A DNA stretch of 64,000 bases from Cytophagales bacterium (GTDB lineage: Bacteria; Bacteroidota; Bacteroidia; Cytophagales; Cyclobacteriaceae): NCBI GenBank assembly GCA_017303795.1, contig JAFLBR010000001.1:434001-498000 (forward strand), in the 5' to 3' direction. The notes beneath the pieces were generated by a model. The model did not search any database. It saw only the letters and a list, made by a program, of their open reading frames with translations, and had not been told where the DNA came from. Shown in pieces: positions 1-30,106 of the stretch; within the stretch, counting starts at the first letter, position 1, and the number at the start of each line of letters is the position of its first letter. The translations under genes and the position numbers were made by a program.

Positions 1-3000
1 CTAATCAGGTGGTGGTGTACACCGTTACACCAACCAGTTCGAACGGTTGTATCGGAAACCCTTTCAGTGTTTCAGTTACAGTAAGGCCGGAACCAAGAGG
101 TTATAATGATGCAACTCCACTTACTTGTAGTGACGTAGCTTTAGCTTACGATCTAAATACCAACGTGGCAAACGTAGGTTTGGGTGGTAACAACCTGGTA
201 ACAGGTACTACTTATAGTTGGGTAGCCGCAGCAAATGCAACTGTTTCAGGTGAAAGTACAGTGCCTCAGGCAGGTAATATTATTAACGATGTACTTAACA
301 ACGTTACCAACTCGAATCAGGTAATTGTTTATACTGTCACGCCTACAAGTGCAGACGCTTGCGTGGGTAATCCTTTCACGGTTTCTGTTACCGTGCGTCC
401 TGAACCTCGTGGCTTTAACGATTCAAGTCCAATAGTTTGCAGCGATGCATCAGTCAATTATAGTCTGGTGTCAAACATCACCAATACCGGTGCTGGCGGT
501 AATAACCTTGCTATTGGAACAACCTATAGCTGGGTTGCGACCGATAATGTTAATGTTACTGGTGAAAGCCTGGGCGCACAAACGGGTAGTACAATCTCCG
601 ATGTAGTGAATAATATAACCATCTCTAATCAGGTGGTAGATTATACGGTTACACCTACCAGCGGTGACGGTTGCGTGGGTAATCCTTTTACAGTTTCGGT
701 TACCATCAGACCTGAACCAAGAGGATTTAATGATGTGGCCACCATATGTAGCGATGCAGCGGTAGCTTACGATCTTGCTGCTAATATTGCGAATACAGGA
801 GCCGGTGGAAACAATCTGGTTACCGGTACAACTTACAGTTGGATTGCCACAACAAATGCAAGTGTAAGCGGTGAAAGTTTATTGCCGCAGACAGGCGCTA
901 CCATTACCGATGTATTAAACAATGTTACCAATGCGAACCAGGTAGTAACCTACACGGTAACACCAACCAGTCAGAATGGTTGCGTGGGCAATCCGTTCAC
1001 CGTAGCTGTTACTGTTCAACCTGAACCGCGGGGCTTTAACGATGCAACTCCATTTATCTGTAGTGATGCAACGCTTAATTATGATCTTAGCGCTAACATA
1101 GCCAATACAGGTGCAGGTGGAAATAACCTGATTGGAGGTACAACCTATAGCTGGATCGCCACAAGCAACACTAATGTTACAGGCGAGAGCACAAGTGCCC
1201 AAACAGGAAGTGTAATCAATGATGCGCTGAATAACATCACCAATGCCACTCAGGTAGTTGTTTATACCGTTACACCAACCAGTGCAGCAGGCTGCGCGGG
1301 TAATCCGTTCACGGTTTCAATCAATGTACGTCCAGAACCGAAAGGTTTTGATGACAGTAGCCCGATTGTTTGTAGTGATGTAGCGATGAGTTACGACTTG
1401 GTAGCTAATATCTCAAATGTTGGTCTTGGTGGTAATAGTCTTGTGGTGGGAACTACATACAGTTGGATAGCAGCCGATAATACGTTTGTAACCGGAGAAA
1501 GTACTTCGGCACAAACCGGAAGCACGATTAACAACACCATCACTAATACAACAAATACAAATCAACAAGTAGTCTATACCGTTACTCCAACCAGTGCCAA
1601 TGGTTGCGTGGGCAATCCCTTTACAGTAACCGTAACCGTAAGACCGGAGCCTCAAGGGTTTAATGATAATACGCCATTGATCTGTAGTGATCAAGCCGTG
1701 AATTACGATTTGAGTGCCAATGTGGCAAATACCGGAGCAGGTGGTAATAATCTAACTACTGGTACAACGTATAGCTGGATAGCAGCATCCAACGCAAGTG
1801 TAGGTGGAGAAAGCACCACACCTCAGGTTGGCGCAACAATAACAGATGTGTTGAACAATGTTACCAATACGAATCAGGTAGTAGCGTACACAGTTACGCC
1901 TACCAGCGGTAATGGTTGTGCGGGCAATCCGTTCACTGTTTCGGTAACTGTTCGGCCAGAGCCAAGAGGCTACAACGATGTAAAAACCATTTGTAGCGAT
2001 GCGACAGTTAGTTACGACCTCATGCTAAATGTGGGCAACACGGGTTTAGGAGGAAACAATCTGATTGCAGGAACTACCTATAGCTGGATAGCTGCGAGCA
2101 ATGCAAACGTAACGGGCGAAAGCACTGCCGCACAAGCAGGCGCCAATATTACCGATGCGCTTAACAACATTACAAATTCAAATCAGGTTGTTGTATATAC
2201 CATCACCCCAACAAGTGCCGATGGTTGCGCAGGAAATCCGTTTACACTAACCGTTACAGTTAGACCTGAGCCGCGCGGATTTAATGATATAACTCCTGTG
2301 GCCTGCAGTGATGTAGCGATTAATTATAACCTTGTTAATAACATTGCTAATACAGGTGCTGGTGGAAACAACCTCGTAACCGGAACAGCTTATAGTTGGA
2401 TTGCAGCTGATAATCCAAGCGTAACAGGCGAAACAACTATCATAGCGGGAACTACTTCTACTATTACTGACATAGTAAATAACGTAACCAATATCGATCA
2501 GGCGGTTGTTTATACCATCACACCAACCAGTTCGGATGGTTGCGTAGGCGATCCATTTACAGTTTCCGTAACCGTGCGTCCTGAACCAAGAGGCTTCAAC
2601 GATCCCTCACCAATTGCGTGTAGCGATGTAGCGTTTAATTATGACTTAGCATTTAACATAGCCAATACAGGTGCAGGTGGAAATAACCTGACTACCGGAA
2701 CAACCTACAGTTGGGTGGCTACATCCAATGCATTTGTAAGCGGAGAGGGTAGTGGTACGGGTGCAATTATTACAGACGTAATCAACAATGTTACCAATAC
2801 CAACCAGGTAGTAGTTTATACAGTAACACCTACCAGCGCCAATGGCTGTGTAGGAAATACATTTACCGTATCGGTAACTGTTCAACCTGAACCCCGTGGC
2901 TTTAATGATGCAACTCCGGTGGTGTGTAGTGATGTTGCGGTTGGGTATGTGTTGAATGCCAATGTGGCCAATACGGTTTCCGGTGGAAACAATCTGGTAA

Positions 3001-20689: not shown

Positions 20690-20765
20690 GGCAATAGGTT
20701 AAAGATTGACGTTATAAAATTAGTGGAATAAGAAAATCCACAGGTAAAGAAGTGATTAAAAAAGT

Positions 20766-20857
20766 GGCAAACCGAACATCGCACCGCTACAACCGCCTAC
20801 CCTTGCTGCCTTCCGGCCCTGGGGGAGTTCAGCAGGAGCTGGTCGTGCCGATTTGCC
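20766..20857 (-). ncRNA. ffs: Signal recognition particle RNA (small bacterial 4.5S type)
   Basis: Read on the minus strand, the segment contains GGCCGGAAGGCAGCAAGGGT, which is the conserved SRP helix 8 with its GGAA tetraloop and the internal loop bound by Ffh. The ends pair as GGCAAATCG (from 20857) with CGGTTTGCC (to 20766), closing a single long hairpin of about 92 nt. A TAnnTTTG-type box lies just upstream. The RNA binds Ffh and delivers ribosomes making membrane proteins to FtsY. Confidence 0.92.
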
Positions 20858-20861
20858 GCTG

Positions 20862-20869
20862 CAAAACTA
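20862..20869 (-). promoter_or_regulatory. -7 box TAGTTTTG of the SRP RNA promoter
   Basis: On the minus strand TAGTTTTG matches TAnnTTTG, with 4 nt between its 3' end and the first paired base of the SRP RNA, about the right distance for a start site. No clear TTG box is seen 19 bp upstream. Confidence 0.5.
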
Positions 20870-21172: not shown

Positions 21173-21727
21173 ATGGTTATTCCCGAACGTGTTGAAACGC
21201 AGCGCCTCCTTTTAACCCGGCTTCAACTTACTGATGCTGAGGAGATTTTTTATACCTATGCCAGTAAACCGGAAAGTACCCGGTTTGTAAGCTGGCCTAT
21301 GCATGAATCCATCTCGGCAACGCGACAGTTTCTGCTTTATGCACGACAAGCCTGGGCAGAAGGTCTTGACTTTTCATTTTCAATCAGGCTAAAAGGCACC
21401 AACCGACTTATAGGTGCCTGCGGGTTTTTGAATGATGGCGGTAAAACGCAGATTGGGTATGTACTGGGCCCGTTGCATTGGAATAACGGCTATGCTACCG
21501 AAGTAACTCAAAAGGTTGTGCAACTTTTACGTGCTCAGCCCGATGTAGTTAAGGTCAATTCTTTTGTGGATGCTGATAACCATGCCTCCGCACGAGTGCT
21601 CCAAAAGTGTGGTTTTGTTGCAGAAGCCATGCTCAAGGAGTGGTGGAAATTCCCCAATCAAAACTTTCAAGCTAAGGACTGTATTCTGTTTCAGTATCCG
21701 TTAGACGCTAAACCAGACTCGCACTAA
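21173..21727 (+). CDS. GNAT family N-acetyltransferase (RimJ/RimL-like)
   Basis: 184 aa. The N-terminus VIPERVETQRLLLTRLQLTD is typical of the RimJ/RimL/Acetyltransf_3 branch. The acetyl-CoA-binding region is IGYVLGPLHWNNGYATEV, and the C-terminal part has the usual ASARVLQKCGFVAEAMLKE motif. These enzymes acetylate N-termini of ribosomal proteins or small molecules; the substrate cannot be read from the sequence. Its 3' end overlaps the convergent gene at 21708 by 20 bp. Confidence 0.87.
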   Translation: MVIPERVETQRLLLTRLQLTDAEEIFYTYASKPESTRFVSWPMHESISATRQFLLYARQAWAEGLDFSFSIRLKGTNRLIGACGFLNDGGKTQIGYVLGPLHWNNGYATEVTQKVVQLLRAQPDVVKVNSFVDADNHASARVLQKCGFVAEAMLKEWWKFPNQNFQAKDCILFQYPLDAKPDSH

Positions 21728-22160
21728 TTTCCGGTAACGTAATTTTATTAAGGAGTTCATTCTCCAGGCATGTGGCCCAGGTGTTAATATATAAGATTAC
21801 ATCTTGCTTAACATTGTGCTTCGGGTTTTGCCGGTTGCCGGGCATGTGCCGAAGCACCTCGGGGTCGGCCAGGCGTTCCAGATTCTGTAAGTTTTCTCGC
21901 GTAAAGCCGGTGGCCAGCAATTCAGTTATAAGCTCGTCCATAGGTAAGCCACTGGTAGGGCAGTAGTCATTCAGTTGTTCCGACCAATCGCCTTGTTTTA
22001 ACATGGCTCGGGAATGAATTTCTGACTTGGTGAGCGCGGTAATTTGTTGGGCAAGAAAACCACAATTGCATAAGCCCATGTGGCCCCATTGATAATCATT
22101 ACTGTGCGCTAACTTCGAGGTAGCTCTGCGAAGTGCCTCAATCATAATCGGGTTTGCCAT
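21708..22160 (-). CDS. Conserved-looking protein of unknown function
   Basis: 150 aa, soluble, no signal peptide. It contains GHMGLCNCGFLAQQITALT with two close cysteines, and later a DVILYINTWATCLENELL region. The CxC pair could bind metal or be redox active, but no known domain is recognised. It is convergent with the acetyltransferase (20-bp overlap) and divergent from the THX/trp operon. Confidence 0.65.
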   Translation of the reverse strand: MANPIMIEALRRATSKLAHSNDYQWGHMGLCNCGFLAQQITALTKSEIHSRAMLKQGDWSEQLNDYCPTSGLPMDELITELLATGFTRENLQNLERLADPEVLRHMPGNRQNPKHNVKQDVILYINTWATCLENELLNKITLPEISASLV

Positions 22161-22263: not shown

Positions 22264-22294
22264 TTTGTGATAAAAGAACCCTTTGCTATACTTG
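22264..22294 (+). promoter_or_regulatory. Promoter TTTG-N19-TATACTTG for THX and probably the trp operon
   Basis: TTTG at 22264-22267 and TATACTTG at 22287-22294 are separated by exactly 19 bp, the Bacteroidota -33/-7 arrangement (TAnnTTTG with one mismatch). It is the only recognisable promoter between the divergent gene at 22160 and trpE; no TAnnTTTG box is seen inside the THX gene. Confidence 0.6.
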
Positions 22295-22316
22295 CCCCTC
22301 TAAATATTTAATTTTA

Positions 22317-22490
22317 ATGGGAAGAGGAGATAAAAAAACAAGAAAAGGCAAGCGCACAGCAGGTTCGTTCGGGGTTTCCCGTAGCCGTAAAAGAATTAAG
22401 GCTCGCATAAAACGTGCTTCTTCTAAGAAGACAACAGCTGCGGCAGCAGAAGCAAAGCCTAAAAAACCAAGCCGTAAAAAAGCTGAATAA
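22317..22490 (+). CDS. Small ribosomal subunit protein of the THX family
   Basis: 57 aa, very basic, starting MGRGDKKTRKGKRTAGSFGV and ending with an Ala/Lys tail. The start and the Lys/Arg-rich composition match the bacterial THX family (bTHX), a short peptide of the 30S head that is common in Bacteroidota. It is short enough to be missed by ORF callers. The stop codon is followed after only 3 nt by the Trp leader peptide, so the two are on one transcript. Confidence 0.85.
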   Translation: MGRGDKKTRKGKRTAGSFGVSRSRKRIKARIKRASSKKTTAAAAEAKPKKPSRKKAE

Positions 22491-22493
22491 AAT

Positions 22494-22550
22494 ATGATAA
22501 AGTCTGTACATACTGCATGGTGGTGGCACAAGTCGAAATTCGATTGGTGA
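22494..22550 (+). CDS. trpL: trp operon leader peptide with WWW motif
   Basis: ATG at 22494 opens an 18-codon frame, MIKSVHTAWWWHKSKFDW, ending in TGA at 22548-22550. Four of 18 residues are Trp, with three consecutive TGG codons (22518-22526) and a last TGG just before the stop. Position 79 nt before trpE and the following terminator hairpin mark it as a transcription attenuation leader: ribosome stalling at the Trp codons when tRNA-Trp is uncharged should favour the antiterminator. It starts 3 nt after the THX stop. Confidence 0.88.
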   Translation: MIKSVHTAWWWHKSKFDW

Positions 22551-22596
22551 GCAGCCCTGCTATGTAATTCAAATATGCCGAAGGCCCGCTGTTCAC
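22547..22596 (+). promoter_or_regulatory. trp antiterminator helix
   Basis: GTGAGCAGC (22547-22555), which overlaps the last Trp codon and stop of the leader peptide, can pair over 9 bp (one G-U) with GCTGTTCAC (22588-22596), the inner part of the terminator hairpin. A ribosome that reaches the stop codon would cover the 5' arm and allow termination; one stalled at the WWW codons would leave it free. A weaker upstream pairing (CATA, GCA, GG at 22509-22520 with CC, TGC, TATG up to 22564) could act as the 1:2 structure. Confidence 0.65.
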
Positions 22597-22614
22597 AGTG
22601 GGCCTTCTTATTTT
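22580..22614 (+). terminator. trp attenuator terminator hairpin
   Basis: GAAGGCCC (22580-22587) pairs with GGGCCTTC (22600-22607). The stem continues with a G-U pair and CTGT/ACAG around a tiny loop, and is followed by TTATTTT. This is an intrinsic terminator 15 nt before trpE. It would end the THX transcript when tryptophan is plentiful. Confidence 0.85.
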
Positions 22615-22628
22615 AAAACTTTTTCAAA

Positions 22629-24020
22629 ATGAATTTTAAAACCTATACCCGTCAACTACTGGCCGATACCATAACTCCGGTAAACATCTACCTGAAGTTG
22701 CGCGATGTGTTTGCTGCCAGTGTGTTGTTAGAGAGTTCGGACTATCATGGAAATGAAAACAGTTTATCGTTTATCTGTTGCGAACCCATTGCCACTTTTA
22801 AAGTAGCAAATGGCCATGCTGAGATTACCTTGCCGGATACAGAAACCCGATTGGTTAAGTTAACCAACGGTCAGGTGGTTTCGCTTTTTGAAGAATTTAA
22901 AAACTCATTTCAGGTTGAGACTGTTGCCACCCGCTACCCGCATGCCGGCTTGTTCGGGTATATGGCTTATGATTCAATCCGGTATTTTGAAGATTTAACC
23001 TTACAACAAACCGGGCCGGAGATTCCGGATATGATCTATTCGCTTTACCGCTACGTAATTGTGGTAGATCATTTTCATAACGAGATGACGTTGTTCGAAC
23101 ATCAACCGGTTACAACAAACTCCGCTAGTACGCTTGATCGACTGGAGCAACTGATTAACAACAATCGGGTAACAACATTTAAATTTAATCGCACACAGCA
23201 AGAGCAATCTAACTATTCTGATGAACAGTTTCTGGAAATCATAAACAAAGGCAAACAACATTGCTTTCGGGGCGATGTGTTTCAGATTGTGCTTTCACGA
23301 AGGTTTGCCACCGGCTTTCAGGGCGATGAGTTTAATGTGTACCGCGCGTTGCGATCCATCAATCCATCGCCCTATCTTTTCTATTTCGACTATGGAAATT
23401 TTAAATTGTTTGGGTCTTCACCCGAAGCGCAGATTCAGATCAAGAATGGAAAAGCACACATCTATCCGATAGCCGGAACATTTCGCAGATCGGGTAACGA
23501 TCAGGAAGATGCGCAATTAGCCGAACGTCTTTCGGCAGATGAAAAAGAAAATGCTGAACACATTATGTTGGTTGATCTGGCCCGCAACGATATGAGTCGG
23601 AATGCTGAAGCGGTACATGTGGAAGTGTTTAAAGAGATTCAATATTATTCGCATGTAATTCATCTGGTATCAAAAATTACGGGCACCATCCGGTCCGATT
23701 CATCGGTAGTGCAGATGGCAGCCGATACATTTCCGGCTGGCACACTTTCGGGCGCACCCAAACACATGGCGATGAAGTTGATTGATCAGTACGAAAATGT
23801 AAACCGTGGTTTTTATGGTGGAGCCATCGGCTTTCTTGGTTTCGATAATTCGTTTAACCATGCTATTATGATTCGTACGTTTTTAAGTAGGAATAACGAA
23901 TTGATTTATCAGGCTGGTGCGGGTGTGGTTTCGAAATCAAAAGCCGAAAGTGAATTGCAGGAAGTAAATAACAAACTGGAAGCTTTGCGCAAAGCCGTGC
24001 TGCTAGCCGAAAAAATTTAA
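22629..24020 (+). CDS. trpE: Anthranilate synthase component I
   Basis: 463 aa. It converts chorismate and ammonia (from TrpG) to anthranilate. The N-terminal feedback motif LLES (33-36, in VLLESSDYHG) that binds tryptophan is present. The chorismate-binding domain has IVLSRRF, the ADEKENAEHIMLVDLARND block, PAGTLSGAPK and YGGAIG. First gene of the trp operon after the attenuator, so both transcription and enzyme activity should respond to Trp. Only 9 nt separate it from trpG. Confidence 0.97.
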   Translation: MNFKTYTRQLLADTITPVNIYLKLRDVFAASVLLESSDYHGNENSLSFICCEPIATFKVANGHAEITLPDTETRLVKLTNGQVVSLFEEFKNSFQVETVATRYPHAGLFGYMAYDSIRYFEDLTLQQTGPEIPDMIYSLYRYVIVVDHFHNEMTLFEHQPVTTNSASTLDRLEQLINNNRVTTFKFNRTQQEQSNYSDEQFLEIINKGKQHCFRGDVFQIVLSRRFATGFQGDEFNVYRALRSINPSPYLFYFDYGNFKLFGSSPEAQIQIKNGKAHIYPIAGTFRRSGNDQEDAQLAERLSADEKENAEHIMLVDLARNDMSRNAEAVHVEVFKEIQYYSHVIHLVSKITGTIRSDSSVVQMAADTFPAGTLSGAPKHMAMKLIDQYENVNRGFYGGAIGFLGFDNSFNHAIMIRTFLSRNNELIYQAGAGVVSKSKAESELQEVNNKLEALRKAVLLAEKI

Positions 24021-24029
24021 AAAGAGTTT

Positions 24030-24602
24030 ATGAAAATTTTGGTTCTCGATAATTACGATTCGTTTACATACAACCTGGTGCACATCATTCGGGTGTTGGG
24101 TTATGCGCCCGATGTTATTCGCAACGATAAAATAAGTTTGGAAGCCGTAGCTGCCTATGATAAAATTCTGCTTTCACCAGGGCCGGGTATTCCCGATGAA
24201 GCCGGGATTATGAAAGTCGTTATCAAAACGTATGGCCCTTCAAAAAGTATTTTAGGAATTTGCCTCGGGCATCAAGGCATTGCTGAAGTATATGGAGCGG
24301 AGTTGTTTAACATTCCACAAGTATTGCATGGCGTAACCTCAACCGGTAGTGTTCAGGATGAAGCCGAGTATTTGTTTAAAGGTGTGAATACAAAATTTCA
24401 GGCCACGCATTATCATTCATGGGCGGTAAAACCAAATACGTTAACGGAAGCACTGAAAGTAACCGCTGTGAATGAAACTGGTTTAATCATGGGCTTAAGG
24501 CATACTGAATATGATGTGCGAGGCTTACAATTTCATCCGGAATCGATTATGACTCCCGAAGGTCCGCGCATGATTGAAAACTGGTTGAAACATTCCCGTT
24601 AA
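24030..24602 (+). CDS. trpG: Anthranilate synthase component II (glutamine amidotransferase)
   Basis: 190 aa. Class I glutamine amidotransferase: oxyanion SPGPGIPDEAG, nucleophile Cys78 in GICLGHQGIAE, and the His-Glu pair in LQFHPESIMTPEG. It supplies ammonia to TrpE. The length is that of a stand-alone TrpG, not fused to TrpD. It may also serve 4-amino-4-deoxychorismate synthase, as in some bacteria, but the operon position makes the Trp role primary. Confidence 0.96.
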   Translation: MKILVLDNYDSFTYNLVHIIRVLGYAPDVIRNDKISLEAVAAYDKILLSPGPGIPDEAGIMKVVIKTYGPSKSILGICLGHQGIAEVYGAELFNIPQVLHGVTSTGSVQDEAEYLFKGVNTKFQATHYHSWAVKPNTLTEALKVTAVNETGLIMGLRHTEYDVRGLQFHPESIMTPEGPRMIENWLKHSR

Positions 24603-24614
24603 AATTGAATAACA

Positions 24615-25601
24615 ATGAAACAGATTTTAACTGAACTGATAGAGCATAGAAGTCTTACGAAAGAAACCGCGCACCGCGTGTTGGTAGATTTGGCGCAAGG
24701 TAAATTTAACCTGAGCCAGACCGCAGCATTTATGACGGTGTATATGATGCGCAGTATTACGGTAGATGAATTACAGGGCTTTCGCGATGCGATGCTGGAA
24801 CTTTGTGTGGCAACACGGTTCGATCAACCCGTAATGGATGTGTGTGGTACCGGTGGCGATGGTAAGAATACTATCAATCTTTCTACGCTTTCTTCTTTTG
24901 TAGTAGCCGCAGCTGGGCAACCGGTTGCCAAGCATGGTAACTATGGCGTGTCATCGGCTTGTGGTTCTTCTAATTTGTTGGAATACTTTGGTTATACGTT
25001 TACCAATGATCACGATGAACTGAAGCGGAGTTTAGATCGCAGCAATATTTGTTTTATGCATGCACCTTTGTTTCACCCGGCTATGAAAAATGTAGCTCCC
25101 ATCCGCAAAGAACTGGGCGTGAAAACTTTCTTCAATATGTTAGGCCCAATGGTTAATCCAGCTTTTCCTACGCGGCAATTGGTGGGTGTGTTTAGTTTGG
25201 AGCTTGCGCGACAGTATGGTTACTTATATCAGCAAAGTGGTAAAGACTTTTTAATTCTTCATTCACTGGATGGTTACGATGAAGTTTCGCTTACCAGTGC
25301 GTTTAAGTTTTTTTATAACGGTGGCGAACGATTAGCTAACCCGATTGATCTGGGTTTACCGAAAGTAAAATACGAAGAGATTAAAGGCGGAAGTACGGTA
25401 GAGGAATCGGCTAAGATTTTCATGAACGTGTTGGAAAATAAAGGAACTACGGCTCAACAGTCGGCTGTTATTGCCAATGCCGCTATGGCGTTGTATTGTG
25501 CTGATGTAAAAGCGGGATTACCAAGTGCTGTAGTTAAGGCAACCGAAGCATTAAAGTCCGGCAAGGCTTTACAGGCGTTTAAGAAATTAATGAATAAGTA
25601 A
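24615..25601 (+). CDS. trpD: Anthranilate phosphoribosyltransferase
   Basis: 328 aa. It transfers phosphoribose from PRPP to anthranilate. The PRPP-binding Gly-rich motif DVCGTGGDGKNTINLST (75-91) is intact, as are KHGNYGVSSACGSSN and LGPMVNPAFPTRQLVGVF. It lies 12 nt after trpG and 1 nt before trpC, within a tight operon. Confidence 0.97.
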   Translation: MKQILTELIEHRSLTKETAHRVLVDLAQGKFNLSQTAAFMTVYMMRSITVDELQGFRDAMLELCVATRFDQPVMDVCGTGGDGKNTINLSTLSSFVVAAAGQPVAKHGNYGVSSACGSSNLLEYFGYTFTNDHDELKRSLDRSNICFMHAPLFHPAMKNVAPIRKELGVKTFFNMLGPMVNPAFPTRQLVGVFSLELARQYGYLYQQSGKDFLILHSLDGYDEVSLTSAFKFFYNGGERLANPIDLGLPKVKYEEIKGGSTVEESAKIFMNVLENKGTTAQQSAVIANAAMALYCADVKAGLPSAVVKATEALKSGKALQAFKKLMNK

Positions 25602-25602
25602 G

Positions 25603-26409
25603 ATGGATATTCTGAAGGAAATAATTGCAACCAAGTATAAAGAGGTAGAAGAACGTAAAGCCTTATATCCCGTTAAGTTGCTGGAGAAGAGTATTTACTT
25701 TGAAGGCCCAACGGTATCGTTAAAAAAGTATGTAACGCGTGCGGATAAATCGGGGATTATTGCAGAGATCAAACGCAAGTCGCCATCCAAAGGAGTAATT
25801 AATCCTTACGTATCCGTTGAGCGTACTTCTATTGGTTACATGCAAGCCGGAGCATCAGCGCTTTCGGTGCTTACCGATTCAAAATATTTTGGTGGCAGCA
25901 GCGATGATTTAATCACCGCTCGCAAATTTAATTTTTGCCCGATCCTGCGAAAGGATTTTACAGTTGATGAATACCAGATCATTGAAGCAAAGTCAATTGG
26001 TGCCGATGCTATTTTATTGATTGCGGCTGCACTTGAGCCTGTAAGACTTAAACAACTGGCAGCCTTTGCGCATACCTTAAAGCTGGAAGTGTTGCTGGAA
26101 GTTCATAATAAAGAAGAGTTAGAGGCTAACCTGGCTGCCGATGCAGATTTGATTGGGGTAAACAACCGTAACCTCAAAACATTTGTTACAGATGTAAACT
26201 TATCGGCACAACTGGCTACGTTTATTCCAAACCAGTTTGTAAAAGTTTCTGAGAGTGGTATTGAGAATCCGAATACCATAATTGAACTTAAACAACATGG
26301 TTATCAGGGTTTCTTAATGGGGCAGAATTTTATGCAACACAGCAGACCCGAACAGGCTTGTCAGGAATTTATTAATGAGTTGAAAAAATTAGAGCGCAAA
26401 ACGTTGTGA
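25603..26409 (+). CDS. trpC: Indole-3-glycerol phosphate synthase
   Basis: 268 aa TIM-barrel enzyme that closes the indole ring from CdRP. Key motifs are AEIKRKSPSKG (catalytic Lys), LRKDFTVDEYQI, LEVHNKEEL, GVNNRNLKTF and VSESGIENP. It is a separate protein, not fused to TrpF. Its TGA stop overlaps the GTG start of trpF. Confidence 0.96.
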   Translation: MDILKEIIATKYKEVEERKALYPVKLLEKSIYFEGPTVSLKKYVTRADKSGIIAEIKRKSPSKGVINPYVSVERTSIGYMQAGASALSVLTDSKYFGGSSDDLITARKFNFCPILRKDFTVDEYQIIEAKSIGADAILLIAAALEPVRLKQLAAFAHTLKLEVLLEVHNKEELEANLAADADLIGVNNRNLKTFVTDVNLSAQLATFIPNQFVKVSESGIENPNTIIELKQHGYQGFLMGQNFMQHSRPEQACQEFINELKKLERKTL

Positions 26410-27056
26410 TCGAAGTTAACTCCATATCGTGCAAGGTGTGTGGAATGCGTGCGGCTGCAAACATTGAAGTCGTGGCTGCTATACAACCACAATTTATGGG
26501 ATTTATCTTTTATAAAAATTCACCACGGTTTGTAGGCGATCAGTTTCAGATTCCGGAAAATTTTCCGGTGGGCATCAAACGCGTAGGTGTTTTTGTAAAT
26601 GAAACTTCAGACGTGATTCTTGATCTGTTGCGAAAACATAAATTGGATTTCGTTCAACTTCATGGCGATGAAACACCTTTTTATGTTAGAAATCTGAAAG
26701 CAAAAGGGGTGGGGATTATAAAAGTTTTTCGGGTGGATGCTGATTTTGATTTCTCAACAACAAAAGAGTTTGAAACTGTGTCGGATTATTTTCTATTTGA
26801 TACAAAAGGCAAACAATATGGTGGCAATGCTATCAAGTTCGATTGGAAACTGCTTCAGAAATACACCGGCTCAGTTCCGTTTTTCTTAAGTGGTGGAATT
26901 TCAGTTGATGATATTCAAGCGCTTACTGAATTCAAACATCCGCAATGGTATGGCGTTGATGTAAATAGTGGTGTTGAGATAGAACCCGGTTTAAAAGATA
27001 GTGTAAAAGTAAAAAATCTGATTCAGATGTTAACTGAATCAAACCTTAACCAATAA
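26406..27056 (+). CDS. trpF: Phosphoribosylanthranilate isomerase
   Basis: 216 aa TIM barrel. It performs the Amadori rearrangement of PRA to CdRP. Motifs: CKVCGMR (catalytic Cys), [20 protein letters not shown] (catalytic Asp), FFLSGGIS and GVDVNSGVE. The start is a GTG overlapping the trpC stop (GTGA), which indicates translational coupling. The N-terminus has a short extension before ISCKVCG. Confidence 0.95.
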
Positions 27057-27060
27057 AGTT

Positions 27061-28242
27061 ATGCAGTACGATGTAGATGCACGAGGTTATTATGGAAATT
27101 TTGGTGGTGCTTACATTCCCGAAATGTTGTATCCCAATGTAGAGGAATTACGCACCCGCTATTTGGAGATTATGCAACAACCAGATTTTCAAAAAGAGTT
27201 TGCCGATCTGCTTCGGCATTATGTCGGTCGCCCTACGCCACTTTACCATGCCACGAGACTATCAGAAAAATACAACGCTAACATTTACCTGAAACGCGAA
27301 GACCTTTGCCATACTGGTGCGCATAAAATCAACAATACCATTGGCCAGATTTTGTTAGCCAAACGACTCGGCAAACAAAAAATAATTGCCGAGACCGGAG
27401 CTGGTCAACATGGTGTAGCTACGGCTACCGTGTGTGCATTAATGGGTATGGAGTGTATTGTGTATATGGGTAAGTTGGATATGGATCGTCAGCGCCCCAA
27501 TGTAGAACGCATGCGCATTCTCGGCACCAAGGTTGTTCCTGCATTATCAGGCAACATGACGTTGAAAGATGCTACCAACGAAGCCATGCGCCATTGGATT
27601 AATCATCCGACTGATACACATTATATCATTGGTTCGGTGGTGGGGCCGCATCCATATCCACACATGGTTACGTTGTTTCAATCTGTCATCAGCGAAGAAA
27701 TTAAAAAGCAATTGATAGCAGAGATCGGGCAACCTAATCCCGATTACGTAGTGGCCTGTGTGGGTGGTGGCAGTAATGCAGCTGGTGCATTTTATCATTA
27801 CTTAAATGAAGAGCACGTAAACCTGATTGGTGTTGAAGCTGCGGGCCTTGGTGTGGATAGTGGCGAATCGGCTGCGACTACCGCATTGGGCAAGCCGGGC
27901 GTGTTGCATGGTAGTAAAACGCTATTAATGCAAACCAGCGATGGTCAGGTTGTTGAACCGTATTCTATTTCTGCGGGTTTGGATTATCCCGGCATTGGTC
28001 CATTGCATGCACACTTGTTTGAAACCGGTCGCGTACAGTTTGTAAACGCTACCGATGATGAAGCGATGAATGCCGGTATTGAACTGGCGCGCATGGAAGG
28101 AATTATTCCGGCAATTGAATCGGCACATGCAATCGCAGCGCTTGCAAAGTTAGAACTCACTAAAGAAGATGTAGTAGTGGTTAACCTTTCGGGAAGAGGT
28201 GATAAAGATTTGGAGACTTATATCCGTTGGGGAAAATATTGA
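27061..28242 (+). CDS. trpB: Tryptophan synthase beta chain
   Basis: 393 aa, standard length for TrpB1. PLP lysine K89 in [24 protein letters not shown], the phosphate-binding [10 protein letters not shown], and LSGRGDKD near the end. It condenses indole with serine. It is separated from trpA by 86 nt that carry an inverted-repeat element (28254-28300), the only sizable gap in the operon. Confidence 0.98.
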
Positions 28243-28253
28243 GATAGCCGAAC

Positions 28254-28300
28254 AGGCGTCTGACCGGTATTATGTGAAGCTATTAACCGGTCTGACGCCT
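28254..28300. repeat. Inverted-repeat element between trpB and trpA
   Basis: Arms at 28254-28268 (AGGCGTCTGACCGGT) and 28286-28300 (ACCGGTCTGACGCCT) form a 15-bp stem with one central T-T mismatch and a 17-nt loop. The core AGGCGTCTGAC recurs in a second intergenic hairpin at 34239-34286. No T-run follows, so it is unlikely to stop transcription into trpA. It may stabilise or process the mRNA. Confidence 0.7.
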
Positions 28301-28328
28301 TGGGTAGTATTGAATTAAAAGATTTCAA

Positions 28329-29102
28329 ATGAAAAATAGAATTACAGAATTATTGTCGAACACAAAGAAGCCGGTGCTTTCTGTTTTTTATACAGCCGGA
28401 TTTCCAAACCTGAATGATACGGAAGCCATTGCAATATCGCTTGAAGCAGCAGGTGCCGACTTAATTGAAATCGGAATTCCATTTTCCGATCCGGTGGCCG
28501 ATGGCCCCACCATTCAGGCCAGTAACAAGAAGGCGTTAGAGAATGGTATGACAGTGGAGTTGTTGTTGAAGCAAGTGACTTCCATTCGCAGTAAAATAAA
28601 ACTGCCTATTGTTTTAATGGGTTACTTAAATCCGGTAATGCAATATGGCGTTGAACGTTTTTTTAAAGATGCCTCAGCCGCTGGTGTAGATGGATTAATC
28701 TTACCCGATCTGCCCTTAGATGAATTTCCACAATACGAAGCATTAACCGCTTCATTGAACCTTAGTGTTTCCTTTTTGATTTCGCCTACAACAAGCGAGG
28801 CGCGGATCAGAAAAATTGATGCCCTTAGTTCAGGTTTTATCTATGCCGTTTCTGCCTCCAGCACCACAGGCGCGAAGGATGAATTCAGTTCGGAGCAAAT
28901 GGCTTACTTTCAAAAACTAAAATCACTTAAACTCAGCAATCCTTTTTTGATTGGTTTCGGAATTTCAAATTCAAAAACGTATGCGCAGGCCTGCACGAAT
29001 GCAGCTGGGGCTATTGTGGGTAGTTCATTTATTAATCAAATCAGTACAAGTAAAAATCTTGAGACTGATATTCGTCAATTTGTAAAGTCGTTAACAGCAT
29101 GA
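28329..29102 (+). CDS. trpA: Tryptophan synthase alpha chain
   Basis: 257 aa. It cleaves indole-3-glycerol phosphate to indole, which passes to TrpB. The catalytic Glu (E47 in LIEIGIPFSDP) and Asp (D58 in VADGP) are present, with LMGYLNPV, DGLILPDLPLDE and the phosphate-binding GFGIS and GSSF segments. Its TGA stop overlaps the ATG of the following DAHP synthase gene. Confidence 0.97.
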   Translation: MKNRITELLSNTKKPVLSVFYTAGFPNLNDTEAIAISLEAAGADLIEIGIPFSDPVADGPTIQASNKKALENGMTVELLLKQVTSIRSKIKLPIVLMGYLNPVMQYGVERFFKDASAAGVDGLILPDLPLDEFPQYEALTASLNLSVSFLISPTTSEARIRKIDALSSGFIYAVSASSTTGAKDEFSSEQMAYFQKLKSLKLSNPFLIGFGISNSKTYAQACTNAAGAIVGSSFINQISTSKNLETDIRQFVKSLTA

Positions 29103-30106
29103 TTATCGAGTTAAAATCAAAGATTAATCCAGAGGTTAAAAAATCTATTGTTGCTAAGGTTGCGGCTCTGGGTTACAAATCCATGGAAGTAAACACGCAA
29201 CGCAGTCAATATTTGGTGGCCATCGGAAAAAAGGAGTTTGATATTCGCACCATCGGACACATGGCTGGCATTGCCGATATTCATCAGGTTTCAGATGAAT
29301 ATAAACTGGTTTCAAAAAAATGGAAAGTAGCACCTACGGTAATTGATCTGGGCGATGGCGTAACGATTGGTGGTAACGGTTTGTCAATCATGGCCGGGCC
29401 ATGTTCTATTGAGAATGAAAAGCAGATCGAACAAACTATTCAACATCTGGTAAGTAATAATGTGCGCATTATGCGCGGGGGCGTGTTTAAACCACGCAGT
29501 TCGCCTTATGCCTTTCGGGGTTTAGGTATTGATGGCTTGAAGTTGTGGTATGAGTTGGCCCGGAAGAATGGAATTAAAATTATCAGTGAGGTAATGCAGG
29601 TAAGCCAGATTGAACCGATGCTGCCGTATGTAGATGTATTTCAGGTAGGCGCGCGCAACACTCAGAATTTTAATTTACTGGATGAGTTGGGCAAAGTAGA
29701 TAAACCCGTGATGATTAAACGCGGTATCTCCGGAACGATTGATGAGTTGCTGTCATCAGCCGAATATGTTTTCTCAGCTGGAAATGAAAAGTTGATTCTA
29801 TGCGAACGCGGTATTCGCACGTATGAAAAAGCCAGTCGCAATACAATGGATATTAATGCCATTCCAATTCTGAAAGCAAAATCGCATTTGCCCGTGGTAG
29901 CTGATCCCTCGCATGGCATTGGTATTCGGGAGTTTGTACCACCAGTGGCATTGGCTGCGGCTGTTGCCGGAGCGGATGGTATTATTTATGAAACGCATCA
30001 AAAGCCGGAAGAAGCTTTTAGCGATGGGCAGCAAACGTTAGACTTTGATGAATCCAGTCGCTTGATTGAAAAACTTCGGGCTGCGCATAAGCTTATGGCG
30101 AACTGA
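29099..30106 (+). CDS. aroF: 3-deoxy-7-phosphoheptulonate synthase (AroF/AroA type I beta)
   Basis: 335 aa. The N-terminal ferredoxin-like regulatory domain (about 1-70) precedes the barrel with IMAGPCSIEN, MRGGVFKPRSSPYAF, EVMQVSQIEPMLPYVDVFQVGARN, VMIKRG, LCERGIRTYE, PVVADPSHGIG and the metal ligands near the end. It catalyses the first step of the shikimate pathway. The 4-nt overlap with trpA makes it the last gene of the trp operon. Chorismate supply should therefore be boosted together with tryptophan synthesis when the attenuator opens (inference). Confidence 0.95.
   Translation: MIIELKSKINPEVKKSIVAKVAALGYKSMEVNTQRSQYLVAIGKKEFDIRTIGHMAGIADIHQVSDEYKLVSKKWKVAPTVIDLGDGVTIGGNGLSIMAGPCSIENEKQIEQTIQHLVSNNVRIMRGGVFKPRSSPYAFRGLGIDGLKLWYELARKNGIKIISEVMQVSQIEPMLPYVDVFQVGARNTQNFNLLDELGKVDKPVMIKRGISGTIDELLSSAEYVFSAGNEKLILCERGIRTYEKASRNTMDINAIPILKAKSHLPVVADPSHGIGIREFVPPVALAAAVAGADGIIYETHQKPEEAFSDGQQTLDFDESSRLIEKLRAAHKLMAN

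Follow-up and report, generated by a model that had tools for sequence, protein, structure and literature searches.

The DNA before the tryptophan operon of this Cytophagales bacterium most probably encodes a transcription attenuator that is ribosome-mediated and belongs to the Bacteroid-trp kind, here as a variant joined to the gene of a ribosomal protein; we put the probability of this reading at about 0.9. The kind of attenuator is already known. The new part is the position of the leader, which in one clade lies directly behind the gene of the 30S ribosomal protein THX. The window, that is, the whole 64,000-nucleotide stretch of DNA that was analysed, holds the following features:

22264-22267 (TTTG), a gap of 19 nt and 22287-22294 (TATACTTG), + strand: promoter-like site of the Bacteroidota type, before THX
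22317-22490, + strand: gene of 30S ribosomal protein THX (TIGR04560, 34.5 bits, cut-off 26)
22494-22547, stop TGA 22548-22550, + strand: leader ORF MIKSVHTAWWWHKSKFDW, a reading frame conserved in relatives
22507-22566, + strand: ribosome-free fold, 22507-22517 paired to 22558-22566, enclosing 22519-22536 paired to 22540-22556
22518-22526, + strand: three consecutive Trp codons (WWW)
22547-22555, + strand: 5' arm of the antiterminator, covering one base of the last Trp codon and the entire stop codon
22580-22607, T-rich tail 22608-22614, + strand: intrinsic terminator
22629-29102, + strand: trpE, trpG, trpD, trpC, trpF, trpB and trpA, the operon regulated in the proposed scheme
29099-30106, + strand: DAHP synthase gene, 3' of trpA

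An earlier note on this DNA had proposed a leader frame with four Trp codons, a terminator, a 9-bp competing helix and a trpEGDCFBA operon downstream, and all of these are present. The leader ORF, with its stop, spans exactly 22494-22550, and its fourth Trp codon is 22545-22547. The terminator has a stem of 12 pairs, eight of them G-C, a loop of 4 and the tail TTATTTT. The antiterminator pairs 22547-22555 with 22588-22596 through nine base pairs, one of them G-U; its 3' arm is contained in the terminator stem, and the two structures are mutually exclusive. The gene order is confirmed by domain matches, with trpD, C, F, B and A identified through Pfam domains, and trpE, trpG and the DAHP synthase gene checked separately. 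Two elements had been overlooked: THX abuts the leader without a visible separate promoter, and a further fold pairs the Trp codons with the antiterminator arm. In the inner helix of this ribosome-free fold, the Trp codons and the codons that follow pair with the segment holding the arm. The 125-nt leader folds with -44.6 kcal/mol (z -4.27), a value equalled by none of 200 shuffles.

Together these parts suggest how the attenuator would work. Transcription would start upstream of THX and proceed through THX into the leader ORF and the attenuator. When Trp-tRNA is plentiful, the ribosome would reach the UGA stop and cover the arm at 22547-22555, the terminator would form, and only the THX mRNA would be made. 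When Trp-tRNA is scarce, we infer that the ribosome stalls on WWW and disrupts the fold between the Trp codons and the arm; the arm, about 20 nt downstream, would then be free to pair with 22588-22596, no terminator would form, and trpEGDCFBA would be read.

A terminator scan by itself performs at chance level (one found against 0.9 expected in shuffles), so the case for the attenuator rests on comparative evidence. The region upstream of trpE was taken from 134 loci (L003-L032 and L060-L163), of which L016, L025 and L110 were excluded as having at most 25 nt of upstream sequence. A Trp-rich leader precedes trpE in 127 of the 131 evaluable loci, one of them doubtful (L031), and the conservation of Trp codons that the earlier note had asked for is thus borne out. 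A short ORF with WW lies within 450 nt upstream of trpE in 122 loci, L031 included; five more leaders (L024 and the Flavobacteriia loci L121, L127, L134 and L139) emerged on closer reading, and the leader is absent from L032, L109, L111 and L130. A short ORF with WWW was also present in 10 of 17 additional upstream regions. In L121, L127, L134 and L139, an intact WWW leader and terminator lie about 475-575 nt upstream of trpE; several hundred bases separate the attenuator from the trpE match, and close relatives differ.

Removal of identical leader-to-trpE sequences reduced the 122 leaders to 107 distinct ones, which are not 107 independent cases because several represent the same genome in two collections. 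WWW occurs in 98 of them, and exactly eight residues stand ahead of the first Trp in 85. A terminator was found in 106 of the 107 by a best-of search. The Trp codons lie in a frame that is predicted to be translated: among close pairs from 47 distinct 18-residue leaders, 449 of 1,772 codon differences are synonymous in frame, compared with 218 of 1,749 and 220 of 1,700 in the other two frames of the same pairs. Such an excess is expected of a translated leader.

The leaders fall into two classes by their antiterminator. Those of class I, to which the window belongs, carry the arm GTGA(G/A)CAGC, which contains the UGA stop and pairs with GCTGTTCAC; the overlap of the arm with the stop codon, noted earlier for the window, is conserved in this class. 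Those of class II have a GATCGG-type arm, located within Asp-Arg codons, that pairs with CCGATC. Most of their peptides exceed those of class I by five or six residues, whereas L015 and L017 have 18 residues. In the long-peptide leaders of class II, a large part of the arm precedes the stop codon, so that a finishing ribosome would mask it only partially. The arm has been replaced between lineages while its spacing from the Trp codons was kept. In 99 of 105 leaders, the best contiguous arm helix, taken as a best-of choice without a shuffled control, starts 11-21 nt past the last Trp codon. This distance places the arm just outside the footprint edge of a stalled ribosome.

Each arm also fits its own terminator. 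The mean pairing energy is -16.6 kcal/mol for own partners and -9.2 kcal/mol for partners from unlike leaders. Own pairing exceeds the mean of the unlike pairings in 91 of 91 leaders and is the best of all in 65; the remaining 14 of the 105 had too few unlike partners for this comparison. Against shuffled arms, z falls below -2 in 76 of 105 leaders, and 29 fall short of that value. These results bear on a simpler account, in which the hairpin is a plain THX terminator, the WWW frame is accidental and trpE is transcribed from elsewhere. The hairpin does lie directly 3' of THX, and the chance-level terminator scan would agree with such an account, but WWW recurs in loci without THX, the arm fits the terminator at a fixed spacing, and synonymous differences are in excess in frame. 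We regard it as extremely improbable and rejected both it and chance, given that leader, terminator, arm fit and synonymous signal are all conserved.

The earlier note had further expected the alternative stems to covary, which holds for the terminator and for the class II antiterminator by cell counts, but not for the class I arm. Of the 40 class I leaders, 32 make up alignment A1; the others (L008, L097, L099, L100, L107, L112, L113 and L135) were omitted as divergent or indel-bearing. In the terminator, 99.7% of cells are paired, and two-sided changes occur in 19 cells compared with 4.8 in shuffles. In the class II antiterminator, 12 cells show two-sided changes compared with 4.4 in shuffles, although the number of pairs with such a change is not higher (2 compared with 1.8). 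All 288 cells of the class I antiterminator are paired and eight of its nine pairs never vary; being nearly invariant, it provides no covariation signal of its own. The ribosome-free fold is paired in 83.1% of cells (24-41% in slid controls), with two-sided changes in 33 cells compared with 18.8 in shuffles, but the count of pairs showing such changes is unremarkable (9 compared with 7.5), and individual outer pairs are disrupted in as many as 21 of the 32 sequences. RNAalifold, unprompted, recovers the inner part of this fold, in which the Trp codons are paired to the arm, and class II leaders have a similar fold.

The pairing also informs a second alternative. TnaC is a Trp-sensing arrest peptide, and the leader might act in the same manner rather than as a plain sensor of codon starvation. 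Residues outside the Trp run are indeed conserved in the clade (AWWWH[KR]S..D). However, RNA pairing can explain their conservation: the codon of the conserved His is paired to GUG in the arm, and those of Ser and Asp sit in a hairpin. Moreover, the residues 3' of WWWH are unlike among orders. A tnaC-like mechanism is therefore very improbable in our estimate, and we retain codon-starvation sensing by a translating ribosome. A T-box leader was rejected, as no T-box family appeared in Rfam scans of the whole window at the gathering score or of 22280-22760 at E up to 10.

In the window, the THX stop lies 3 nt ahead of the leader ORF. The TIGR04560 scan that identified THX began at the second codon of the frame, and THX is the single match to this family in the whole genome; a Pfam scan gave no match for THX. 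The end of THX lies at most 60 nt upstream of the leader in 73 of the 107 distinct leaders, and in 71 the distance from THX stop to leader start is -4 to +18 nt, with a median of 3 (the position of THX in L005 was set by hand). THX overlaps the leader start in seven leaders, and the overlap in L008 may stem from an indel close to where THX ends. The THX-adjacent leaders form one clade, accounting for 71 of its 72 rows, the exception being L007 with a broken THX frame. This clade has an SH-aLRT support of 100 in the TrpE tree (midpoint root), where the THX label needs two changes, one of which is L007. The fusion with THX thus represents a conserved variant, and its distribution is consistent with one origin. 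L007 and L062, which are identical from leader to trpE, combine a broken THX frame with an intact attenuator, perhaps owing to an indel error in the record. Outside the clade, a THX-like gene lies 39-43 nt ahead of the leader in L097, L098 and L135.

The published promoter consensus of Bacteroidota is TTTG/TAnnTTTG, and transcripts start 4-5 nt downstream of its -7 box (PMC6847099). The -7 box of the window's site is one base off this consensus, and the sites of the THX clade are mostly one base off as well. A pattern relaxed after inspection of the sequences, TTG-N16-21-TA(T/A)HHTTG, occurs before THX in 57 of 62 loci (1.2 in shuffles), ending 16-31 nt ahead of the gene, and inside THX and the leader in none of the 62 (0.3 in shuffles). 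The stricter first pattern found a site before THX in 25 of the 62 loci and inside in one; the inside match is L135, where THX is 39 nt away. As promoter-like sites precede THX and none lies within THX or the leader under the relaxed pattern, the THX mRNA probably also has its end at the attenuator, and the trp genes appear to share a promoter with THX.

A rival reading accepts attenuation as described but places a trp promoter inside the THX and leader region, making THX a mere neighbour. The scan recognizes one promoter type only, and the stricter pattern does give its inside match in L135. The relaxed pattern, found before THX and not inside, and the THX-leader gap of a few nucleotides in a single clade save L007 argue against an internal promoter, which we consider doubtful though clearly more plausible than the two alternatives above. 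We consider a fuller proposal slightly more likely than not: in one Cytophagales clade, the Trp attenuator would constitute the 3' end of the THX mRNA, both units would be served by one promoter, ribosomes that have finished THX would restart on the leader just downstream, and Trp supply would set whether the transcript ends or reads through into trpEGDCFBA. If this is true, a ribosomal-protein promoter drives an amino-acid operon, and translation of THX provides the sensing ribosome. A literature search on ribosomal protein THX and trp, with most subscription papers outside its scope, found no publication on this link.

No THX precedes the leader in the Flavobacteriia loci examined. Among 33 loci sorted as lacking THX (one of them, L005, is really THX-linked), 22 have a promoter-like site before the leader itself. 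In 13 of these 22, all Flavobacteriia (L114-L116, L120, L122, L123, L125, L126, L131-L133, L136 and L137), the end of the -7 box, mostly TATATTTG, lies 5 nt ahead of the ATG of the leader. With transcription starting 4-5 nt downstream of such a box, translation of the Trp leader in these Flavobacteriia probably begins on a nearly leaderless mRNA. The leader ORF would thus be placed near a supply of ribosomes in two ways, either at the extreme 5' end or directly behind THX. Bacteroidota are a phylum without Shine-Dalgarno sequences (PMC6847099); if the THX fusion works as proposed, it would show how such a phylum can couple leader translation to transcription. Ribosomes would be handed over by an upstream gene or, as in Flavobacteriia, would start on a transcript that is almost leaderless.

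The attenuation logic had been described earlier as known from enterobacteria. The logic is indeed known there, but this understates prior knowledge, since Rfam already holds Bacteroid-trp (RF01692) for Bacteroidota. The window has the short Trp-rich WWW leader before trp genes and shares with RF01692 the ribosome-free fold and the start of the terminator (cmscan alignment to model positions 1-131). It scores 27.1 bits at 22471-22590, below the gathering score of 49, and the Rfam scan of the whole window gave no RF01692 match at that score; under the current model it is therefore not filed as a member. It further differs in having THX directly upstream, and part of its clade differs in its class II arms. 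Across 291 genomes of the order, RF01692 matched 10 at E 0.001, seven of them above cut-off and all from families other than that of the window. Among 20 loci compared with RF01692, the seven above cut-off are all Flavobacteriia and seven THX-clade loci are below; all eight clade leaders scanned with the current Rfam model fall below cut-off.

Model R1, which we built from 32 class I leaders, detects all 13 over-cut-off RF01692 loci given to it (seven from the order and six Flavobacteriia), with rough E-values of 3e-10 to 1.5e-3, the last ones weak: 3e-9 to 3e-8 for L033-L039, 3e-10 to 2e-7 for L108, L120 and L132, 2e-5 for L123, 5e-4 for L114 and 1.5e-3 for L115. The three order loci below the RF01692 cut-off give about 1e-15 to 1e-16. 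Because R1 recovers RF01692 loci, we read all of them as one homologous group that the Rfam model covers in part. At E 0.001, R1 has matches in 123 of 196 genomes of the family; of the best 58 matches whose positions were compared, 54 immediately precede trpE in its own orientation and four lie away from it (E 5e-5 to 8e-4). Searched at E up to 1, the genome of the window yields the window site and an overlapping antisense match (E 0.02), and no match at other genes.

The Proteobacteria Trp operon leader (RF00513), whose mechanism is known from E. coli, scores 21.5 bits against a gathering score of 41. It shares the logic of Trp codons in a leader ORF and alternative 1:2, 2:3 and 3:4 helices. 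In contrast, the stop codon here lies within the antiterminator arm, and a PF01371 search of the genome for TrpR was empty, with positive E. coli and B. subtilis controls.

The literature we found on Trp attenuation in Bacteroidota consists of the Rfam motif and short remarks. The motif is listed in Table 1 of PMC2864571. PMC6414381 describes a Bacteroid-trp element conserved before the Flavobacterium psychrophilum trp operon and suggests starvation control, and PMC9723704 refers to strong clues in this species for leader-peptide attenuation before amino-acid operons. The passages of both papers on attenuation leave THX linkage unmentioned. The 107 leaders now display the alternating structure, a spacing rule and arm replacement under constant spacing. 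Ribosome-mediated attenuation is thus well supported in silico, and the mechanism is directly testable in cultured relatives, for example Ohtaekwangia or Dawidia. The closest named records by TrpE, at 90% identity, belong to uncultured Cyclobacteriaceae and Flammeovirgaceae.

Two further elements lie near THX. Its neighbour on the opposite strand is a 150-residue ORF (21711-22160, - strand) without an NCBIfam or Pfam match. A small SRP RNA (RF04183, Bacteroidales_small_SRP) lies about 1.5 kb upstream of THX at 20762-20864 (- strand), and another occurs in L017 at 137-240 (- strand), at most 1.4 kb from the leader.
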